Positions 19,044-40,709 of a stretch of DNA of 64,000 nucleotides are shown piece by piece. Positions within the stretch are counted from its first letter, which is position 1. Each line of letters begins with the position of its first letter. The translations under genes were made by a program, and so were the position numbers. The stretch covers positions 114,435-178,434 of the forward strand of contig JAFRSW010000014.1 in the NCBI GenBank assembly GCA_017427385.1, written 5' to 3'. The notes below the pieces were generated by a model. The model saw nothing but the letters and a program-made list of their open reading frames with translations. It was not told the DNA's origin and did not search any database. The DNA is from Bacteroidales bacterium (GTDB lineage: Bacteria > Bacteroidota > Bacteroidia > Bacteroidales > UBA932).

Positions 19044-19064
19044 TTGTCTTTCAGCCACTTACAT

Positions 19065-19098
19065 AAAATCGTCTGGTGAATTTTCACCAGACGATTTT
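19065..19098. repeat. 34-bp palindromic hairpin, copy 2 (terminator)
   Basis: The arms AAAATCGTCTGGTGAA (19065-19080) and its reverse complement (19083-19098) flank a TT loop and end in TTTT, directly after the GH106 stop. Same architecture and core as 1901-1934. Likely terminator for the plus-strand operon. Confidence 0.8.
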
Positions 19099-19120
19099 GC
19101 ATAACTCGTTGATACTTAGT

Positions 19121-19247
19121 CTGTCAGGCACTGCCCCTGGCGGAACTCCGTTCACTTCGTTCACTCCGGCCCCTCCCATCTGCGATGGGCCCCTCCCCCT
19201 GCCCGTGTCCGGGGGTGGACACGTCCGCCAGGGGCAGTGCCTGGCAG
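19121..19247. repeat. Palindromic repeat element, intergenic copy (related to 29637-29756)
   Basis: Terminal inverted repeats of 24 bp with one mismatch (19121-19144 and 19224-19247; core GGCACTGCCCCTGGCGGA) bound a 127-bp GC-rich block. Inner hairpins include GTGTCC/GGACAC and CCCATC/GATGGG. Read on the minus strand, the block aligns with the in-gene element at 29637-29756 through CCCCTGG, GGACGTG, CCACCC, CGG, ACGG, ATGG and CAGGGG in the same order. One minus-strand frame has no stop across its length. It lies between convergent genes, 9 bases past the GH78 stop. Confidence 0.8.
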
Positions 19248-19256
19248 GCTACAGTA

Positions 19257-25963: not shown

Positions 25964-28366
25964 ATGAAAGCAATAATTTCAACAATCCTTTGTATGCTTT
26001 CCGGCATTGCTCTTTCAGCCGGGCCCGTGCAGGAAGTTAAACTGGACAACGGCCTGAAAGTCAAGGTGGAGGTGTGCACCGATGCCATTTTCCGTGTAAG
26101 CATTTCCCCGAAAGGCACATTTTCGGAGGCCCTGCTAAACAGATATGGAGTTGTGAAAACCGACTGGGCGCCTGTAGAAAGCACATATACCTACGATGAA
26201 GGCCAGCCCGCCGGCCTGAATGAAAGCTACATATTCACTACGTCCAAAGCTACGCTTATCATAGCTAAAGCCGACGGCACTATCTGCCTGAAAGACGCGT
26301 CCGGCAAGGTTATGGTGCAGGATATCCTCTTCCGGAAACCTGGGACACCCGAAGTACGTGCGCTGGCAGAAGCCGTAATCGACAAGTTCGGCGGACTTGT
26401 CGTGGCGAAGAACGACGGAATCATCGGGGACGACAACAATAGCAAGAACAAAAGGGATACTGCAGAAGCCGGTGACCCTGCAAAAGCCAGCATCATATCC
26501 ATCAGTATGGCAGACGGCGAGCGCTTCTATGGCGGTGGCAGCACCTCCCGCGAGCATATACAGCACCGTGGAGAGATGCTTCGCATGTGGACTGCATACC
26601 AGCACACGGAGATTCCAATGCCCTTCATGATGAGTTCCCGCGGATGGGGAATTTTCAACAACACCACTCGCAAATGCCACTTCGATGTGGGATACACCGA
26701 TCCTGAGCGTTTCAACATCTACAACACCTTCGATGAGGCGGATTTCTACCTGATGGTGGGCACGGACATGCCTTCTGTGCTGGATCTTTATACCCAGATA
26801 ACAGGCCGCACCTACGTGCTGCCCAAGTGGGCCTACGGTTTTGCATTCGGCCCCAACATGCGGGAAGACCAGTGGGCCATCCTCTCCGATGCGGCTAACT
26901 TCCGGCAGATGGGCGTGCCCGTGGACCTGTTCTGGCTGGAGCCGCAGTGGATGGAGAAGCGCTACGACTTCTCTACCAAGAAGAAATGGAACTACGACCG
27001 TTTCTCTCCCGAGCCCTACTGGCTGCAGGACAAGATGCCTAAGAAGTACTATCCGCGTCTTTTCATTGGCAAACTCAACAGCATGGGCATACATCTGGGC
27101 CTCTGGCTCTGTGAGGAATACGACCACAGCATCATAGAGGAAGACCTTATCGCTGCGCGCGAAGGCCGTCCCCAGTCCGGCTTGGAGCACTGGCCGGACC
27201 ATCTCACCACCTTCATGGATATGGGTGTGGAAGGATTTAAACTGGACCCTGCCCGCACTATCGATGAGCATCCCACATGGAAGTATTATAACGGTCTGAC
27301 GGACAAGGAGATGCACAATCTTAACCAGGTTCTTCTCGTAAAGCAGGTGGCATCCATGACACGCAAGCATACAGGCAAACGCAGTTGGCATCACTACTGC
27401 GGAGGATGGGCAGGTACACAGCACTGGACTGCCGCTAACAGCGGAGACAACGGTGGTGGCCTGATAGCCCTCTACGACCAGCACAACCTCGGCATGAGCG
27501 GTTTCATGAACCTCAGCTGCGACATTATGAGCGTGCCGCGTGAGCTGGAGATGCCGGGACTCCATTTCGGTATTTTCCTCCCCTGGGTGCAGGTTAACAG
27601 TTGGTTCAGCATGATGCAGCCCTTCTACTATTCAGGGGTAGAGAAGGAGATGTATAAGTTCTACGTCAAGCTCCGCTATCAGTTCATACCTTACATATAT
27701 TCGAATGCGCTCGAAGGCGCCTTGACCGGTATGCCTATGGTACGGTCGATGCCGCTCGAATTCCCTGAAGACCGCAACTGCGATGACATGGCCCTGCAGT
27801 ATATGTTCGGTCATCAGTATGCTGTAAGTGCCTATAGCAACGATATCTACCTGCCGGCCGGAGAATGGATCAACGTTTGGACGGGTGAACTTGTGGACAG
27901 TAGGGGAGAAACGGTCACACGCGAGCTCCCTTACAACCGAGCCGGACAGTTCTTTGTGCGCAACGGCGCAATCGTTCCCACGGCTCCCGATATGGAATTT
28001 ATCGGCACTAAGCCTCAAACAGACTTTATAATAAAGGTGTATCCCCATGGCGATACCAGCTTCACCATGTACGAAGATGACGGGGAAAGCTACGAATATG
28101 AGAACGGCGCCATCAGTTCTACGCTTTTCGAGTGCAGGCAGAGCGGAAAAACGGCAAGTATAACCGTGAACCCTGTGCAGGGAAGCTACAAGGGAATGCC
28201 ATCCGCACGAAATTACAGTTTCGAAGTCCGCTGCACCTCCAAGCCTAGAAAAGTGCTTGTAAATGGCGTAAAGACCAAGGATTGGACCTGGGGAGACAAC
28301 ACCTTGAAAGTATCTGCCGGCAAAGTCGGTATCAATGAGAAAACAACAGTAAACATTCAGCTCTGA
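25964..28366 (+). CDS. GH31-family alpha-glycosidase
   Basis: An 800-residue exported protein (signal peptide about 1-20). The GH31 layout is complete: an N-terminal beta-sandwich with YGGGSTSREHIQHRG at about 189-203, and a TIM barrel with the likely nucleophile Asp428 in GFKLDPAR. The acid/base candidate is Asp495 in NSGDN, and MNLSCDIMS lies downstream. C-terminal sandwich domains follow (YLPAGEWINVWTG; YEDDGESYEYENG). The FKLD form resembles alpha-xylosidase-type members more than starch alpha-glucosidases, but substrate assignment is uncertain. The stop overlaps the GH3 start by one base. Confidence 0.85.
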   Translation: MKAIISTILCMLSGIALSAGPVQEVKLDNGLKVKVEVCTDAIFRVSISPKGTFSEALLNRYGVVKTDWAPVESTYTYDEGQPAGLNESYIFTTSKATLIIAKADGTICLKDASGKVMVQDILFRKPGTPEVRALAEAVIDKFGGLVVAKNDGIIGDDNNSKNKRDTAEAGDPAKASIISISMADGERFYGGGSTSREHIQHRGEMLRMWTAYQHTEIPMPFMMSSRGWGIFNNTTRKCHFDVGYTDPERFNIYNTFDEADFYLMVGTDMPSVLDLYTQITGRTYVLPKWAYGFAFGPNMREDQWAILSDAANFRQMGVPVDLFWLEPQWMEKRYDFSTKKKWNYDRFSPEPYWLQDKMPKKYYPRLFIGKLNSMGIHLGLWLCEEYDHSIIEEDLIAAREGRPQSGLEHWPDHLTTFMDMGVEGFKLDPARTIDEHPTWKYYNGLTDKEMHNLNQVLLVKQVASMTRKHTGKRSWHHYCGGWAGTQHWTAANSGDNGGGLIALYDQHNLGMSGFMNLSCDIMSVPRELEMPGLHFGIFLPWVQVNSWFSMMQPFYYSGVEKEMYKFYVKLRYQFIPYIYSNALEGALTGMPMVRSMPLEFPEDRNCDDMALQYMFGHQYAVSAYSNDIYLPAGEWINVWTGELVDSRGETVTRELPYNRAGQFFVRNGAIVPTAPDMEFIGTKPQTDFIIKVYPHGDTSFTMYEDDGESYEYENGAISSTLFECRQSGKTASITVNPVQGSYKGMPSARNYSFEVRCTSKPRKVLVNGVKTKDWTWGDNTLKVSAGKVGINEKTTVNIQL

Positions 28367-30762
28367 TGAAAAGATATATCTACCTGGCCGCCATCGTGGC
28401 AATTACTGCCTGTTCCCATGGAGGCTGGAAAGACCCAAGCCTCCCTTCGGAAAAACGTGCACAGCTCCTTCTGAAGGAGATGACACTGGAGGAAAAGATC
28501 GGCCAGATGTGCCAGTATGTAGGCCCATGCTATGTGCCGCCGGATCAGGGGTCACCCTACAAGAACATAGATGCGTCTGATGAGAATCTAGGAAATCCAG
28601 GGCTGGCAGACAAAATTCGCGAGGGTAAGGTGGGTTCATTCCTGCATGTGCTGACCGGCGAAGAAGCCCATCAGTTACAGACGCTCGCAAGTGAATCCAG
28701 GCTTGGCATCCCTCTTCTGTTCGGAATAGATGCCATTCATGGTAACTGCCTGAGGGCTGGCTGCACTGTGTATCCTTCCCCCATCAATCTTGCCTCTACT
28801 TTCAACCCCGAGATTATGGAGGAGATTGGTGCGCAGACCGCAGAAGAGATGCGGATAACGGGCATGTACTGGACTTTCGCGCCCAATCTGGATGTGGCGC
28901 GTGATGCCCGCTGGGGTAGGATGGGAGAGACATTCGGAGAGGATCCATGGCTGGTATCCCAGATGGGAAAATATATGATTTGGGGGCTTCAGGGCCGAGA
29001 GCGAAATTACTCCGAAGGCAAGGTGCTGGCATGTGCAAAACACCTCATCGGAGGAGGGGAGCCATTCGGAGGGCTTAATGCATCCCCTATGGATATGAGC
29101 GAGCGCAAGATGCGCGAACTTCATCTTCCTCCTTTCGTGGCCGCGATAAAGGAAGCAAATGTGGCTACGGTAATGACCGCCCACAACGAGTTAAACGGCG
29201 TCCCGTGCCATGCAAATCGTTGGCTGATAGAGGATTTGCTTCGCGGAGAGCTTGGTTTCGACGGCTTTGTAGTCAGCGACTGGATGGATATCGAGCGCCT
29301 GCACAGCATGCATCATCTTGTGCCCAGCGAAGACGAGGCATTCAAGGTTTCGGTTGAGTCGGGGATCGATATGCACATGCAGGGAGACAATTATTTTGAA
29401 TCTGTGCTGGATGGCGTAAAGAGCGGACGCATTTCGAAGAAGCGCATCGACGCTGCTGCGCGCAAAATAATCGAGGCCAAATTCGCCCTCGGCCTGTTCG
29501 AGAACCCTATTCCGGAGATTCCTTCGGAACGCGGTTTCGCCGCCATTCCAGAACACCGCCAAACCTCTCTGGAGGCTGCTCGCGAAGGGATCGTCCTCCT
29601 GAAAAATGACGGTATCCTGCCGCTGCGCTATGCAGTGGATGGAGGTATACCCCTGGAGGGACGTGCCACCCGCGGCACGGAAGCGGGGGGACCGTCCCGT
29701 AGGGATGGTGGGGTGAGCCCGAAGGGCGAACTCCCGACAGGGGTATACCTCCATCCGCGCGTATTTCTGTGCGGACCGAATATCGACAGCCAGACGATTT
29801 TGGGTGATTGGGTAGTGCCGCAGGACGACGATGACGTGATTACGGTTCTGGAGGGCCTGAAGACGGTTTGCCCGGGTGCCAGGATAGATACGATGACATT
29901 CCGCGGCCGGGTTACGGCAGTTGATGAAGCAGGCATACGACAGGCTGCTGCCAAAGCTCGCCAGGCCGATGTGAACATACTTGTGCTGGGTGATAATTCC
30001 CAGCGTTATTCCGCTTTCGGACGCACCTGTGGCGAAAATTGCGACAGGGATAACATCGACTTGCCCGGCCGCCAGCAGGAACTGCTGGAAGCGGTCGCGG
30101 CGAGCGGTCGCCCGACCGTGCTCATTCTCATGAGCGGCCGGGCCCTTGGGGTCCACTGGGCGGCGGAGAATCCCTCTGTAAATGCCATCGTAGAGGCCTG
30201 GGAGCCGGGTCAGATGGGCGGTCAGGCTATTGCTGAAATACTGTTCGGCCTTGTCAATCCTTCCGGAAAACTTCCAGTAACAGTTACTCGCAATGCCGGT
30301 CAGATACAGTGTGTTTACAATCACAAGCACTCACAGTATTCCCGTCATTTTGCGCTTGCTGAGCAGGGCCCTCTCTATCCTTTCGGATTCGGACTTAGTT
30401 ATACGGAATTCGAGTATGGGGAACCGGTCCTTTCCAAAATGGAAATCGGTCGGGATGAAAGTGTTGCTTTGAACGTGGTGGTTAAGAATACAGGTCTTGT
30501 TGCCGGTGCAGAAGCTGTGCAACTGTATATCCGCGATGAATATGGTTCTGTCACACGTCCGGTCAAAGAACTGAAAGACATACGGAAAGTATTTTTGAAA
30601 CCGGGCGAAAGCGCTGATATTCAATTTGATATAACCCCTGATATGATGGCATGTTGGGGCGCTTCCGAGAGATGGGAAGTCGAAGCGGGGGAGTTTACAC
30701 TTATGGTAGGATCTTCATCTGATGATAGCTTTTTGAGAGGTGTGGCATTGACCGTTAAATAA
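28366..30762 (+). CDS. GH3 beta-glycosidase lipoprotein carrying an in-frame palindromic insert
   Basis: A 798-residue GH3 enzyme, predicted as a lipoprotein (AITAC, Cys16). The N-terminal barrel has GIDAIHG, ARDARWGRMGETFGED and KHLIGGGEP, with the nucleophile Asp305 in FVVSDWMD. The C-terminal alpha/beta domain and fibronectin-III-like tail end normally (LYPFGFGLSYTEFEY). Between LPLRYAV and RVFLCGPN (residues 425-464) sits a 40-residue Gly/Arg-rich stretch encoded exactly by the palindromic repeat at 29637-29756. Other GH3 proteins have only a short linker there. GH3 members act on beta-glucosides or beta-xylosides; GH31 is coupled upstream. Confidence 0.9.
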   Translation: MKRYIYLAAIVAITACSHGGWKDPSLPSEKRAQLLLKEMTLEEKIGQMCQYVGPCYVPPDQGSPYKNIDASDENLGNPGLADKIREGKVGSFLHVLTGEEAHQLQTLASESRLGIPLLFGIDAIHGNCLRAGCTVYPSPINLASTFNPEIMEEIGAQTAEEMRITGMYWTFAPNLDVARDARWGRMGETFGEDPWLVSQMGKYMIWGLQGRERNYSEGKVLACAKHLIGGGEPFGGLNASPMDMSERKMRELHLPPFVAAIKEANVATVMTAHNELNGVPCHANRWLIEDLLRGELGFDGFVVSDWMDIERLHSMHHLVPSEDEAFKVSVESGIDMHMQGDNYFESVLDGVKSGRISKKRIDAAARKIIEAKFALGLFENPIPEIPSERGFAAIPEHRQTSLEAAREGIVLLKNDGILPLRYAVDGGIPLEGRATRGTEAGGPSRRDGGVSPKGELPTGVYLHPRVFLCGPNIDSQTILGDWVVPQDDDDVITVLEGLKTVCPGARIDTMTFRGRVTAVDEAGIRQAAAKARQADVNILVLGDNSQRYSAFGRTCGENCDRDNIDLPGRQQELLEAVAASGRPTVLILMSGRALGVHWAAENPSVNAIVEAWEPGQMGGQAIAEILFGLVNPSGKLPVTVTRNAGQIQCVYNHKHSQYSRHFALAEQGPLYPFGFGLSYTEFEYGEPVLSKMEIGRDESVALNVVVKNTGLVAGAEAVQLYIRDEYGSVTRPVKELKDIRKVFLKPGESADIQFDITPDMMACWGASERWEVEAGEFTLMVGSSSDDSFLRGVALTVK
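29637..29756. repeat. Palindromic repeat element inserted in frame in the GH3 gene
   Basis: 25-bp inverted ends with two mismatches (29637-29661 and 29732-29756; core GGATGGAGGTATACCCCTG) enclose a GC-rich core with three small hairpins (CGTGCC/GGCACG, TCCC/GGGA, GCCC/GGGC). Its length, 120 bp, is a multiple of three. It is related to the intergenic element at 19121-19247. Confidence 0.85.
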
Positions 30763-36177: not shown

Positions 36178-38400
36178 CTACTTCATAACAAACAATAGAT
36201 CGGCACCATCCTTAATGTCAGAGTACTTAAGGGTGGTGCTCTTCTTTTTGACGCCGTTTAGATAAATGTCTTTCACATAGACGTTCCTGGGACTCCAGTT
36301 TTTAGTGCGAACGGTCAGGATGCCGCCGTCAGACAGATGCACCTTTACGCCTGGCACGCAGGGGGAGGCGAGTTCGTATTCGTTGCTGCCGGGGCAGACG
36401 GGGTAGAAGCCCATGCAGTTGAACAGGTACCATGCGCTCATCTGTCCGCAGTCGTCGTTGCCGCTGAGGGCGTCGGGCGTGTTGCCGTAGAAGTGGTCGG
36501 CCACGTAGCGCACCCATTTCTGGCATTCGCGGGGTTTGCCCAGCTTATTATAAAGGTAGAGCACATGGTGGCAGGGTTCGTTGCCGTGCCAGTATCCGCC
36601 TATGCGGCCCCAGATGTCGTGGGCGCCGGGGATATCGTCGCTCATCTCCAGCTTGAAAATGCTGTCCAGGCGGTCCCGCAGGAACTTCTTTCCGGCAATC
36701 TGCATGTACTCTTCGAATGCATGGGGGACGGTCCAGGTGTACTGCATGGTGAAGCCTTCTGTGATATCTCCCCAGCCGTTCACGCTGCCCGGGCCCTGGT
36801 AGGCGATGGGGGCGAAAGGCGTGCGCCAGTTGCCCTCGGAGTCGCGTCCGCGGGTGTAGAAGGTCTCGGGATCCACCAGGTTCTTCCAGTTCCCGGAGCG
36901 CTTGAGGAAGAATTCATAATCTTCCTCGTGCCCCAGAAGTTTGGCGGCCTGCGCAATGCACCAGTCGTCGTAGGCGTATTCCAGGGTCTTGGAAACGGAT
37001 TCCTTCTCCTTGTCGAAGGGCACGTAGCCGAGCTCGGTGTATTCCGGGATGCAGTCGTAGTGGGGGTTGGTGGCGGTGGTCTTCATCGCCTGGAAGGCAC
37101 GCTCGTAGTCGAAACCCTTCACTCCCTTCATCATCATGTCTGCAAGGACCGAGCAGGAGTGATATCCTATCATGCACCAGGTCTCGCCACCGTAGAAGCT
37201 CCAGATGGGGAGCATGTGCTCGGTGCTCTTGTCGTAGTGCTCGAGCATGGAGTTGGCAAGGTCCGCCTGGAGGGGTTTGTTCACAAGGTTCAGGAGGGGA
37301 TGGAAGGCCCTGTAGGTGTCCCAGAGCGAGAAAGTGGTGTAGTTGGTGAAACCTTTTGCGAGCTCCACCGTGCCGTCGTGGGCACGGAAAAGGCCGTCAA
37401 CATCCTGGAAGAGGAAAGGGTGCTGGGCGGTGCGGTAGACGCTGGTGTAGAAGGTCTGTTTTGTGCGAAGGTCGCAGGAGGGATCAAGTTCATATTTGCC
37501 CAGTTCCTTCTCCCAGAGATTCTCCGCCTCGGCGCGCACAGCCTCGAAGCCCTTGCCATCGAGCTCGGAGAGATTCTTAAGCGCTCCGTCGGTGCCTACG
37601 GCGGATACCGCCACCTTGACGCTGACCTGCTGGCCGGCGCATGTAGGGAATTTGATGCAGGCCTGAAGGCCGCGGCCCCAGGCTTCGAGCGAACTGCGGA
37701 AGCGCTTGGTGTTGTAAATCACCGGTTTACCTTCCTGAAGGATGACGAAATCCTTTATAGGCTCCGAGAAGCGCGCGGCAAAATAGACCTGGCGGCTGGG
37801 GTTCCATCCTGCCACTATCTTGCTTCCTATGATGGTGTGGTCGTCCAGCAGGCGGACGGTAGACCACTCGCACTTCCAGCGGAGGGTATGGTCCAGATCA
37901 ACCATAATAAAAGACTCCTTGCTCTCGGGATAAGTGAAACGGAGTATGCCGCTGCGGGCGGCTGCGGTCATCTCGGCAGTCACCCCGTAATCGGTCAGTT
38001 CAACAGTGTAATAGCCGGGGGAGGCAGCCTCCCTTTCATGGCTGAAACGGCTCCTGTATCCGCTGTCCGGATCCTCCGCGGTACCCGTGGCAGATTTCAA
38101 AGTTCCGGTGCCGGGAACGAAGAGGAAGTCCCCGAGGTCGGGGATGCCGGTTCCGCTCAGGTGAGTGAGACTGAAGCCCATGATCGTGGGCTTGTTATAC
38201 TTGTAGCCTGCGGCCGTGTCGTAGTCGTAATCGTCTGTATCAGGGCTGATTTGTATTCCTCCGAAGGGAATCTGGGCCCCGGGATACACGTTGCCGAACC
38301 CGTCGGTGCCAATGAAGGGATTGACATAGTCTATCAGTCTTTCCTGGGCTCCTGCGCTAAGCGCAAATGCTATAGTCAGAATTGAAAGTAGTCGCTTCAT
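36178..38400 (-). CDS. GH92 alpha-mannosidase-type hydrolase (A)
   Basis: A 740-residue exported calcium-dependent exo-alpha-mannosidase-type enzyme (signal peptide about 1-18). The N-terminus has VNPFIGTDGFGNVYPGA and FGGIQISPDT, and the C-terminal half has the GH92 hallmark GNDDCGQMSAWYLFNCMGFY. GH92 members trim alpha-mannose from N-glycans and yeast mannan. It is the downstream partner of a second GH92 gene, overlapping it by four bases (ATGA), and converges on SusD with a single base between stop codons. Confidence 0.93.
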   Translation of the reverse strand: MKRLLSILTIAFALSAGAQERLIDYVNPFIGTDGFGNVYPGAQIPFGGIQISPDTDDYDYDTAAGYKYNKPTIMGFSLTHLSGTGIPDLGDFLFVPGTGTLKSATGTAEDPDSGYRSRFSHEREAASPGYYTVELTDYGVTAEMTAAARSGILRFTYPESKESFIMVDLDHTLRWKCEWSTVRLLDDHTIIGSKIVAGWNPSRQVYFAARFSEPIKDFVILQEGKPVIYNTKRFRSSLEAWGRGLQACIKFPTCAGQQVSVKVAVSAVGTDGALKNLSELDGKGFEAVRAEAENLWEKELGKYELDPSCDLRTKQTFYTSVYRTAQHPFLFQDVDGLFRAHDGTVELAKGFTNYTTFSLWDTYRAFHPLLNLVNKPLQADLANSMLEHYDKSTEHMLPIWSFYGGETWCMIGYHSCSVLADMMMKGVKGFDYERAFQAMKTTATNPHYDCIPEYTELGYVPFDKEKESVSKTLEYAYDDWCIAQAAKLLGHEEDYEFFLKRSGNWKNLVDPETFYTRGRDSEGNWRTPFAPIAYQGPGSVNGWGDITEGFTMQYTWTVPHAFEEYMQIAGKKFLRDRLDSIFKLEMSDDIPGAHDIWGRIGGYWHGNEPCHHVLYLYNKLGKPRECQKWVRYVADHFYGNTPDALSGNDDCGQMSAWYLFNCMGFYPVCPGSNEYELASPCVPGVKVHLSDGGILTVRTKNWSPRNVYVKDIYLNGVKKKSTTLKYSDIKDGADLLFVMK
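36203..36246 (+). terminator. Probable SusC/SusD terminator inside the GH92 coding region
   Basis: GCACCATCCTTAA (36203-36215) pairs with TTAAGGGTGGTGC (36227-36239), 13 pairs with one G-T, followed by a pyrimidine/T-rich tail (CTTCTTTTTG). It lies 27 bases past the SusD stop but within the last codons of the opposite-strand GH92 gene. Confidence 0.6.
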
Positions 38401-40709
38401 AACGAATAGGGTTTTGTGCCCGCTGCGATGCCGCGGCGCTTATTGGGATTCTTGCTCATTACGAATTCGACTGTGCCTCCATTGAGCAGGTCGGAGTGGG
38501 TGATATAGAGTTTGTCGTAAGGCTTGCCGTTGAGCTTCACGCTCTTAACATAGCGGTTGCGGTCGCTGACTCCGGGAGCCTTGATTTCCAGAGTCTTGCC
38601 GTTCTCCAGCTGCAGTTTTGCATAGGGGAGATAGGGTGCTCCGATCACATACTGGTCGGTGCCGGGGCAGACGGGGTAGAATCCTAGCACGGAGAAGATG
38701 TACCAGGCGCTCATCTGGCCGCAGTCGTCGTTGCCGCCAAGGCCGCGGATTTCGGGCTTGTAGAACCTGTCGATTATCTCGCGCAGCCAGTACTGGGTCT
38801 TCCAGGGCTGAGAGGTCCATGCATAGAGGTAGGGGATATGGTGGCTGGGCTCGTTGCCGTGGACGTATCCGCCGAGCAGGCACTCAGCCGTTACATCTTC
38901 ATTGTCGGCGTAGCAATACTCTGGGAGGTCGCTGCCGAAGAGGTCGTCGAGGTTGGCGATGAACTTCTTGTCGCCGCCCATTATCTTCATGAGCCCGTTA
39001 ACGTCCTGGGGCACGTGGAAGGAGTAGTTGAGGGAGTTGCCCTCGATGAATCCCTGGCCAACGGTCTGCTTGATGTCGAATTCGGGCTTGAAGGAGCCGT
39101 CGGTGTAGCGCGGGCGGGCGAGGCCGAGATAAGTGTCGAAAACGTTCTTCCAGTAGCCCGCGCGCCTGAGGTATCTCTCGGCCACGGCGGTGTTGCCGAG
39201 GCGTTGCGCGGCCGCCGCGATGGTCCAGTCGTCGTAGGAATATTCCAGGGTGTTGCTGGCCGCGGTGGCTGTCTTGTCCAGCGGCACGTATCCCAGTTTC
39301 ATATACTCTCCGAGCCCGCTGTACCACGGCACGGTGGATGTGGAGACCATGGCCTCCAGAGCTTCGGAAGCAGTGATTTTCAGGCCTTTGGCTATTGCGT
39401 CGGAAAGCACGCTCACGCTGTGGTATCCCGTCATGCACCAGTTCTCGTTGGCCATGTGGCTCCAGATGGGAAGCATGTGGTGGGCGCTCTGCTCGTAGTG
39501 TGCGAGCATGGAGGCTATCATATCTTCCGCCTGCGCGGGCTTCAGCAAAGCCAGGAAAGGATGCTCCGCCCGGTAGGTGTCCCAGAGAGAGAAGACGGTG
39601 TAGTTGGTGAAGCCGTCGGCCTGGTGGAGTTCATGGTCGAGGCCGCGGTAGAGCCCGTCCACGTCCATGTAGACCGAAGGGTTGATCATGGTGTGGTAGA
39701 GGGAGGTGTAGAACATCTTCTTCTCCGCCTTGGTACCCTGGATATCTATGCAGTCCAGCTCCTTCTCCCAGGCGGCATCGGCTTCGGCGCGGATGCGGTC
39801 GAAACTCTTGCCCTCGGCTTCGGCCTTTAGGTTTTTGAGGGCTCCGGTGGTGCCGGTGGCGGATATGCCTACCTTCACCACGAGTTCCGGGTTGGAGGCG
39901 GTGTCAAACTTGAACCAGGCGGCCAGTTTGCGGCCCGCCATCTCCGGGAAATTGTGGTACTGGGGGAACTTGCTGTATCCTCCTTTATAATATATGGGGG
40001 CTTTGTCCTTGTAGCCGTATTCGGTGACTGGTTGGGAGAAACTAATTGCGAAATATGTGTAATTCGTTCTTGCCCAGCCGTTTGTGATACGGTAGCCGGT
40101 TATCAGGGTGGGAGAAACCACGCGGACCTCCGCCCAAAGGGTCTTGCCATCGTAGTTGTAGATGCCGTGGTCGAGGTCCATCACCAGATGGCCTCCGGCG
40201 GAAGGGAAGGTGTAGCGGTGCACGCCAACACGCTGGGTAGCAGTGAGTTCCGCCTTGATGCCGGAGTCTGCCAGGGTGACTTCGTAATGCCCCGCGCCGG
40301 CGGATTCGGTGCTATGGCTGAAGCGCTGGCGGTAGCCGCTGTCGGGATCCTCGGCAGTGCCGGGAACGAGCTGCACTTCGCCCATGCCGGGCATCAGCAG
40401 TATGTCTCCCAGATCGGAGTGGCCGGTGCCGCTGAAGTGGGTGTGGCTGAAGCCCACGATAGTCTTGTCATCATATTGATAACCAGCGCAATACTCGTAT
40501 GTGCGTGGCTGGTATTTCCCCTTGATGTTGTGGGGGATCATGTCGGTATCCGGCGAGAGCTGCACACCCCCGAAAGGGACGCAGGCCCCGGGGAAGGTGT
40601 GCCCCATGCCGGCGGTGCCGATGAAAGGGTCAACATATTGCGTTTTCTGGGCGTAGAGACTGCTGCAGAGGCAGATCAGGCCGATGGTCAGTAGGTTTCG
40701 TGTTTTCAT
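38397..40709 (-). CDS. GH92 alpha-mannosidase-type hydrolase (B)
   Basis: From the ATG at 40709 the product is 770 residues (MKTRNLLTIGLICLCSS signal peptide). The open frame extends upstream to 41342, but only through antisense sequence of the divergent gene, so that start is rejected. GH92 features are VDPFIGTAGMGHTFPGA, FGGVQLSPDTD and, late in the protein, GNDDCGQMSAWYIFSVLGFY. It differs clearly from GH92 A, suggesting the two cut different alpha-mannose linkages. First gene of the two-gene operon, with a -7 box just upstream. Confidence 0.93.
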   Translation of the reverse strand: MKTRNLLTIGLICLCSSLYAQKTQYVDPFIGTAGMGHTFPGACVPFGGVQLSPDTDMIPHNIKGKYQPRTYEYCAGYQYDDKTIVGFSHTHFSGTGHSDLGDILLMPGMGEVQLVPGTAEDPDSGYRQRFSHSTESAGAGHYEVTLADSGIKAELTATQRVGVHRYTFPSAGGHLVMDLDHGIYNYDGKTLWAEVRVVSPTLITGYRITNGWARTNYTYFAISFSQPVTEYGYKDKAPIYYKGGYSKFPQYHNFPEMAGRKLAAWFKFDTASNPELVVKVGISATGTTGALKNLKAEAEGKSFDRIRAEADAAWEKELDCIDIQGTKAEKKMFYTSLYHTMINPSVYMDVDGLYRGLDHELHQADGFTNYTVFSLWDTYRAEHPFLALLKPAQAEDMIASMLAHYEQSAHHMLPIWSHMANENWCMTGYHSVSVLSDAIAKGLKITASEALEAMVSTSTVPWYSGLGEYMKLGYVPLDKTATAASNTLEYSYDDWTIAAAAQRLGNTAVAERYLRRAGYWKNVFDTYLGLARPRYTDGSFKPEFDIKQTVGQGFIEGNSLNYSFHVPQDVNGLMKIMGGDKKFIANLDDLFGSDLPEYCYADNEDVTAECLLGGYVHGNEPSHHIPYLYAWTSQPWKTQYWLREIIDRFYKPEIRGLGGNDDCGQMSAWYIFSVLGFYPVCPGTDQYVIGAPYLPYAKLQLENGKTLEIKAPGVSDRNRYVKSVKLNGKPYDKLYITHSDLLNGGTVEFVMSKNPNKRRGIAAGTKPYSL

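Follow-up and report, generated by a model that had tools for sequence, protein, structure and literature searches.

The occurrence of a 120-bp palindrome inside a GH3 glycoside hydrolase gene, as an initial annotation of this Bacteroidales DNA had proposed, raises the question of what such a sequence is, and of how both the genome and the encoded protein accommodate it. The features considered in the window, namely the whole stretch of 64,000 nt that was analysed, are the following.

28366..30762, + strand: GH3 glycoside hydrolase gene of 798 aa, carrier of the insertion (ORF; Pfam PF00933, PF01915 and PF14310; PDB homologues)
29637..29756, + strand: whole palindromic element, 120 nt, in frame at about residues 425-464 (inverted repeats, fold, match to covariance model R1, orthologues without it)
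29637..29655, + strand: left outer arm, 19 nt, perfect complement of the right arm, copy-specific in sequence
29656..29737, + strand: conserved core, common to other loci and species (DNA search with the core)
29669..29687, + strand: core hairpin P1 (CCCGC...GCGGG)
29691..29709, + strand: core hairpin P2 (ACCGTCCC...GGGATGGT)
29712..29732, + strand: core hairpin P3
29738..29756, + strand: right outer arm, reverse complement of the left arm
19117..19252, - strand: second, divergent member of the family, with no long open frame through it (inverted repeat and model match)

The palindrome at 29637-29756 is borne out by its inverted repeats, its fold and comparison with shuffled sequences. Its 25-nt arms (29637-29661 and 29732-29756) are 92% complementary and enclose inner inverted repeats, while the RNA fold predicted for the 120 nt reaches -80.7 kcal/mol (z -7.5), a value equalled by 0 of 200 shuffles. 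When up to three mismatches were allowed, the pattern of the 19-nt arms matched the window at the two arms only (mean of 0.02 in shuffles). The GH3 copy scores 138.6 bits with R1, a score to be read considering that it is among the 12 copies from which this model was made. The member at 19117..19252 has different arms, of 28 nt and 93% complementary, and corresponds to the model match G000:C13:133554-133682 (E 2.0e-6). No Rfam match above the curated gathering cut-off was obtained for the four sources searched, the window included.

The GH3 ORF (28366-30762) stays open across the palindrome, and removal of the 120 nt leaves the frame intact, joining LPLRYAV to RVFLCGP as read from the sequence, just as expected for the in-frame insert that had been placed at about residues 425-464 between these two motifs. 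Pfam assigns the GH3 N domain to residues 40-370 and GH3_C to residues 465-679; the insert therefore lies in the linker between the barrel and the second GH3 domain, also as initially suggested.

A search for orthologues devoid of residues 425-464 had been recommended, and several GH3 genes of the genus indeed lack them. GH3 relatives were detected at E ≤ 1e-150 in 31 of 200 genus genomes, 30 being given as loci, and 16 loci, the window's own among them, could be aligned at the site. Short linkers are found in six (L129, L133, L134, L137, L138 and L140), related elements occupy the same linker in five (L114, L122, L123, L126 and L127, by eye), and other inserts are present in L112, L117, L120 and L121, those of L112 and L121 being perhaps decayed. 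From one conserved flank to the other, the window gene exceeds L133 (G154) by 120 nt, and L128 (G171) and L131 (G122) by 117 nt, so the entire element, including both arms, is extra sequence; in orthologues without the insert neither arm is present. As a separate observation, a further model match (G017:C58:78489-78618) lies at the point where the orthologue L127 ceases to align with the window protein (about residue 693), close to where the Fn3-like domain starts. The alignments of five other GH3 orthologues (G042, G049, G072, G146 and G162) end at 684-694, their ORFs spanning 840-883 aa.

Searches of the element's own genome and of relatives, likewise recommended, returned more copies, many of them in frame inside genes. 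At the DNA level, the own genome yielded the GH3 copy together with weaker matches, including two located where contigs end. Inspected by eye, the two contig ends concerned, C22 and C20, each hold one half of a single copy within a shikimate kinase gene, with an in-frame TAA at the C22 end and an open C20 end; since two contigs end inside one copy, family inserts can break assemblies. The core query (29655-29738) matched seven places in three relatives at 89-93% along all or almost all of its length. At E ≤ 1e-4, the core-only search gave matches in 11 of the 61 genus genomes, the arms beside these matches varying from copy to copy. With R1, 12 matches were obtained in the own genome at E ≤ 1 (GH3 included, two being the shikimate kinase halves, the weakest with E 0.015), together with matches in 38 of the 61 genus genomes at E ≤ 1e-4 and, under stricter filters, in 3 of 247 genomes of the order at E ≤ 1e-5, the own genome included. 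Model matches are 95-176 nt long. A core-pattern scan of 84,980 named species genomes retrieved 83 stretches, and the titles of the 80 listed read Bacteroidales or Bacteroidia, many being from ruminant stomach and one from Candidatus Cacconaster. Viral contigs contained no match to the exact core pattern, and the core search of plasmid and phage records was empty. The palindrome is thus a member of a repeat family present in many unrelated genes of gut Bacteroidales.

Two sets of copies were compiled. Set 1 comprises 89 copies (95 matches, minus four doubled loci, one contig-end half and two weaker second-strand matches, plus L041). Set 2 derives from the stretches with an exact match to 36 core positions, on 80 of the 83 of which R1 was run, and holds 79 copies (86 matches, minus five cut by ends and two on the second strand). 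Both sets overlap and many of the genomes are incomplete.

Pfam domains of the host proteins include, in a first batch, DNA polymerase A, TruB, 2-oxoacid dehydrogenase acyltransferase, biotinyl, MatE, HU-CCDC81, helix-hairpin-helix, radical SAM, SpoU methylase and GidB domains, and in a second one RNB, DsbD, endonuclease, methyltransferase, pyridine nucleotide oxidoreductase, UvrA, DNA polymerase III gamma/tau, GH92 and shikimate kinase domains. Beyond Pfam, we take several of these hosts to be PolA, TruB, a PdhC-like protein, UvrA, a DnaX-like protein, RNase R, RsmG and an RlmB-like protein. The initial annotation discussed the insert in relation to glycan genes; it does sit in a GH3 gene, but the family is not glycan-specific and has many housekeeping hosts. 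In 18 of 19 scanned element-bearing proteins, RNase R being the exception, none of the families above cut-off has its best stretch over the element, a figure that considers best stretches only, the second stretches of MATE, HHH and endonuclease falling outside the comparison. In 10 of the 19 it lies between two matched domains. An apparently different, repeat-like stretch (CATTCCGAGCGAAGCGAAGGA), also in frame by eye, stands beside the DNA polymerase I element (L035:1501-1700).

Reading frames were evaluated with a home-made, codon-based caller. In set 1 (n = 89), 40 copies were in frame and open, 3 shared the frame with a stop, 3 differed in frame and 11 lay between opposite strands; 24 had one flank confidently coding, 7 neither and 1 fell at an edge, these last 24 + 7 + 1 being unclassified. 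In set 2 (n = 79), 47 were in frame and open, 1 had a stop, 2 lay between opposite strands, and 28 uncertain plus 1 edge copies were unclassified. Hence, among copies flanked on both sides by confidently coding sequence of one strand, 40 of 46 in set 1 and 47 of 48 in the overlapping set 2 retain the frame with no stop. The 503 control positions at set 1 loci gave 284 in frame and open, 46 differing, 8 with a stop, 25 opposite and 140 other; the six exceptions among 46 are within the error of the caller itself, because shifted controls fail in 54 of 338 cases. Elements show no enrichment in genes (40 of 89 vs. 284 of 503 control positions). The 65 elements of 115-125 nt have on average 3.55 of six frames open, against 2.93 in shuffles, with four open in the GH3 copy. 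Of the 48 same-frame copies of set 2, 47 have the motif, and these are read in frames +0, -1, -2 and -0 in 19, 22, 5 and 1 cases, respectively, the corresponding counts for the 35 non-redundant ones being 13, 17, 4 and 1. Judging from these open-frame and frame-use counts, in-gene copies appear to have passed selection for an open frame, and no single peptide is conserved across copies. Independently, L012:779-1233 holds two copies about 335 bp apart in an apparently repetitive region, all of whose open frames are negative in the codon model.

Outer arms and core behave differently. Among 91 distinct aligned copies, 93.7% of paired cells hold standard pairs, and 1224 cells are changed on both sides vs. 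342 in shuffles, in an alignment that, being fitted to the model, leans this way. In set 2, with 80 of the 86 rows usable, Watson-Crick complementarity amounts to 90.6% between the two arms of a copy vs. 53.9% across copies, and pairwise identity is 0.83 for the core, inflated because these stretches were fetched by exact match to 36 core positions, and 0.54 for the arms. Arm cells departing from Watson-Crick pairing (43 G.U, 31 A.C and 68 other) lack, in set 2, the clear G.U excess that selection on RNA would be expected to leave. The palindrome extends about 6 nt past the 19-bp arms before falling to background (53 non-redundant copies). In the 410 non-orthologous pairs with core identity of at least 0.95, mean arm identity is 0.62, the outer eight positions reaching 0.49 vs. 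0.43 expected from column frequencies; as arm identity of non-orthologous copies climbs somewhat with core identity, from 0.47 to 0.62, the arms may partly travel with the core. Exceptions to copy-specific arms are several copies sharing arms in genome RGIG3749 and the distant genome G377, in which 8 of the 9 printed copies have common arms, while the three printed copies of G407 have copy-specific outer stems. Across 35 orthologous pairs, after skipping 31 with unalignable arms, 103 arm changes are one-sided, 17 are two-sided and keep Watson-Crick pairing, 64 are two-sided and do not, and 481 positions are unchanged. The 17 pair-keeping changes represent 0.026 of pairs vs. about 0.013 expected, making some arm correction between orthologous copies possible. 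That copy-specific arms arose by slow compensatory correction alone is unsupported, changes being mostly one-sided (103 vs. 17).

Orthologous sites also reveal variability in the core. The SpoU-methylase gene carries the element in five species with the core in opposite orientations and, overall, the core is inverted in 84 of 187 non-duplicate orthologous pairs and at 9 of 21 sites, the SpoU-methylase site contributing 128 of the 187 pairs and 71 of the 84 inverted ones (13 of 59 elsewhere). Some of these cases may instead reflect independent insertion in the other orientation at the same site. Copy-specific arms and core inversion go beyond what the initial annotation had pictured. The shikimate kinase copies of G168 and G171 share their arms and differ over one block of the core (by eye). 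Core identity hardly follows flank identity (rho 0.08, 179 pairs), the similarity of the core exceeding that of the flanks by 10 points or more in 47 pairs and falling short of it by as much in 66. Arm and flank identities correlate (rho 0.61), a value resting on the SpoU-methylase site (0.78); over the other 20 sites the correlation is not significant (0.21, p 0.12).

Besides GH3, sites without the element were found for the endonuclease (L194), RNase R (L193 and L184) and RsmG (L201) genes, as well as for the shikimate kinase L207, whose flanks are 88 and 92% identical to those of L295, the latter having 117 nt extra. By eye, the L295 insert holds an inverted copy of about six native bases, no more than a hint that target sequence contributes to the writing of the arms. 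Remnants, such as that in the own DsbD gene (L173), look like core deletions between short direct repeats, and the compared GH3 and shikimate kinase pairs show no obvious direct target-site duplication (both by eye, the boundaries of the latter being ambiguous). An extra stretch near the start of the own shikimate kinase gene (L002:1282-1352) possibly represents, by eye, an in-frame insert that is older and has decayed, and the L295 element lies near its position.

Altogether, we consider it likely that these sequences constitute a selfish, non-autonomous palindromic family of one Bacteroidales genus that inserts widely and whose frame-keeping copies are translated. Underlying this reading are (i) extra sequence relative to orthologues, (ii) frame keeping, (iii) unrelated hosts, (iv) copy-specific arms, and (v) both core orientations. 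Each element would consist of a conserved core of about 80 nt with three hairpins between near-perfect reverse-complement arms of about 19-25 bp. Copies would insert at many places of the genome, and the survivors within genes would be those whose length and phase keep the frame. They would be translated as Gly/Pro/Ser/Arg-rich stretches, often in interdomain linkers, probably as selfish DNA tolerated by host proteins as extra loops; both translation itself and the lack of benefit to the host are deduced here from sequence. Polymerase template switching at the hairpin would produce arm symmetry and core inversion, and an enzyme acting in trans, the best candidate being a RAYT-type Y1 transposase, would move the element.

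Other readings account for part of these observations. An intron-like or bypassed segment, removed at the RNA level or skipped in translation like yeast mitochondrial byps, would agree with the very stable RNA fold, the kept core helices and, by eye, the in-frame TAA in the C22 version of the shikimate kinase copy. However, such a segment has no need to keep the frame or to avoid stops, and yet 40 of 46 and 47 of 48 copies comply; the C20 version of the same copy is open (by eye) and the arms lack a clear G.U preference, so that this reading is scarcely credible. Frames kept without stops favour translation over splicing, and removal at the RNA level was accordingly considered unlikely. That selection maintains the loop as a functional domain or regulatory RNA, instead of its being selfish DNA, also seems highly improbable: the conserved core, partly a matter of ascertainment, and the uneven frame use (13/17/4/1 of 35 non-redundant copies) speak for it, but four frames, both orientations, unrelated proteins and same-site inversions do not, and a frame bias would arise anyway if some of the encoded peptides did less harm than others. 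Insertion into the centre of pre-existing short palindromes, the outer arm then being target sequence, is suggested by the element-free endonuclease site L194, a perfect palindrome (GGCTCCGGAGCC), and by the terminator-like outer stems of copies in the distant genome G407 (by eye). Nonetheless, in a set of 31 element-free sites, with several sites for a given gene, junctions do not exceed neighbouring positions in palindromic character (mean percentile 0.53), and some palindromic element-free sites look like deletion footprints (by eye); such targets are unsupported as a general rule, and this explanation appears improbable.

The selfish-family reading leaves two processes to be considered, how the arms are made and how the element moves. 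Template switching between inverted-repeat arms is reported to homogenise arms and invert the spacer (PMC8604942), and it fits both signatures, arm symmetry and inversion; it is nevertheless insufficient alone because arm changes are mostly one-sided and element-free sites are not generally palindromic. In a bolder version, no dedicated transposase would be involved: fold-back template switching and recombination would exchange, invert and spread the core as a cassette, with the arms rewritten at each new site partly by inverted copying of the local target. Hints of it come from the shikimate kinase core swap (G168/G171), the decoupling of core and flanks, the tracking of flanks by arms at the SpoU site and the inverted bases of L295. 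We regard it as rather doubtful; if true, it would describe a mobile element with terminal repeats made by the host polymerase. Mobilisation in trans by Y1 transposases, for which we adopt the label RAYT as an assumption, and as proposed for GTAG REPs, can be put forward tentatively. Y1_Tnp was detected at E ≤ 1e-3 in 46 of 61 genus genomes (43 over the curated cut-off), and its co-occurrence with the element (35/3/11/12, p 1.7e-4) persists in genomes at least 90% complete (15/0/4/6, p 0.0012), phylogeny being uncontrolled in both comparisons: at this completeness, all 15 element-bearing genomes have a match and 6 of 10 element-free ones have none. On the other side, three element-bearing genomes have no Y1 match, the association is uncontrolled for phylogeny, and no convincing element was found near 30 Y1 loci (about 1.5 kb on each side where the contig allows), the sole model match being L152 (16 bits, E 0.15), plus 14-15 nt matches at chance level. 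Adjacency to Y1 genes was not observed at these loci, and the Y1 link is a correlation that may reflect clade. No convincing source transposon with matching ends was seen near these 30 loci of the Y1 class either.

The Rickettsia palindromic elements (RPEs) invoked by the initial annotation prove an apt precedent as regards the way of working. They are described as palindromic insertions, about 150 bp long, that occupy unrelated genes without disturbing the frame (PMC10969869) and are tolerated by host proteins (PMC6649704). The family described here shares with them its size (100-150 bp in RPEs; 120 nt with z -7.5 in the GH3 copy, and matches of 95-176 nt) and its in-frame presence in many unrelated genes. 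Each RPE, on the contrary, encodes a conserved peptide, as reviewed in PMC10969869, whereas the Bacteroidales family has none and uses four frames, two of them dominant; it further differs in phylum, in its mostly copy-specific arms and in its inverting core. It therefore works like RPEs yet is a separate family, set apart by RPE descriptions and not by sequences.

GTAG/CGTC tagged REPs are also palindromic, with some copies inside genes, including those of DNA polymerase I, uvrA and pseudouridine synthase, and intragenic REPs are mentioned for several species (PMC3733652). CGTC repeats are reported there in Bacteroidetes, with no link to a transposase (PMC3733652). Unlike REPs, made of a 20-40 bp stem-loop plus an unpaired tag, the Bacteroidales element spans 95-176 nt and has a branched core. 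The termini of MITEs are common to the copies of a family, whereas the Bacteroidales terminal repeats are mostly not shared (0.906 within a copy vs. 0.539 across copies; exceptions in RGIG3749 and G377). Bacterial MITEs are otherwise short and non-autonomous, have terminal inverted repeats and may form in-frame fusions (PMC10969869). Inverted repeats in functional genes of nematomorph mitochondria, for which template switching was proposed (PMC6649704), differ in that their arms encode conserved protein regions, no mobile core being described in the text available. Branched core, mostly copy-specific arms and inversion thus set the family apart from RPEs and REPs by description, and among the matches listed from the open-access literature searched no Bacteroidota case of this kind was found. 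In that literature, as far as the cited texts go, in-frame palindromes in unrelated genes are best described from Rickettsia; the Bacteroidales provide a separate and diverse case, offering many species, element-free sites, inversions and remnants for comparison. Two testable questions arise: how inserted repeats come to be tolerated, and perhaps exploited, in coding sequences, and how terminal repeats can vary between copies yet stay complementary.

The window contains other repeats. Two hairpin repeats, 74% similar (AATCGTCTGGT...ACCAGACGATT), occupy 1887-1955 and 19051-19119, the latter directly adjoining the second palindromic element; they are possibly terminators or another small repeat family. 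Finally, DNA similarity at a spacing of about 2.26 kb links 36178-38400 with about 38400-40700, probably tandem paralogues, the first being a 740-aa ORF that presumably encodes a GH92 enzyme.
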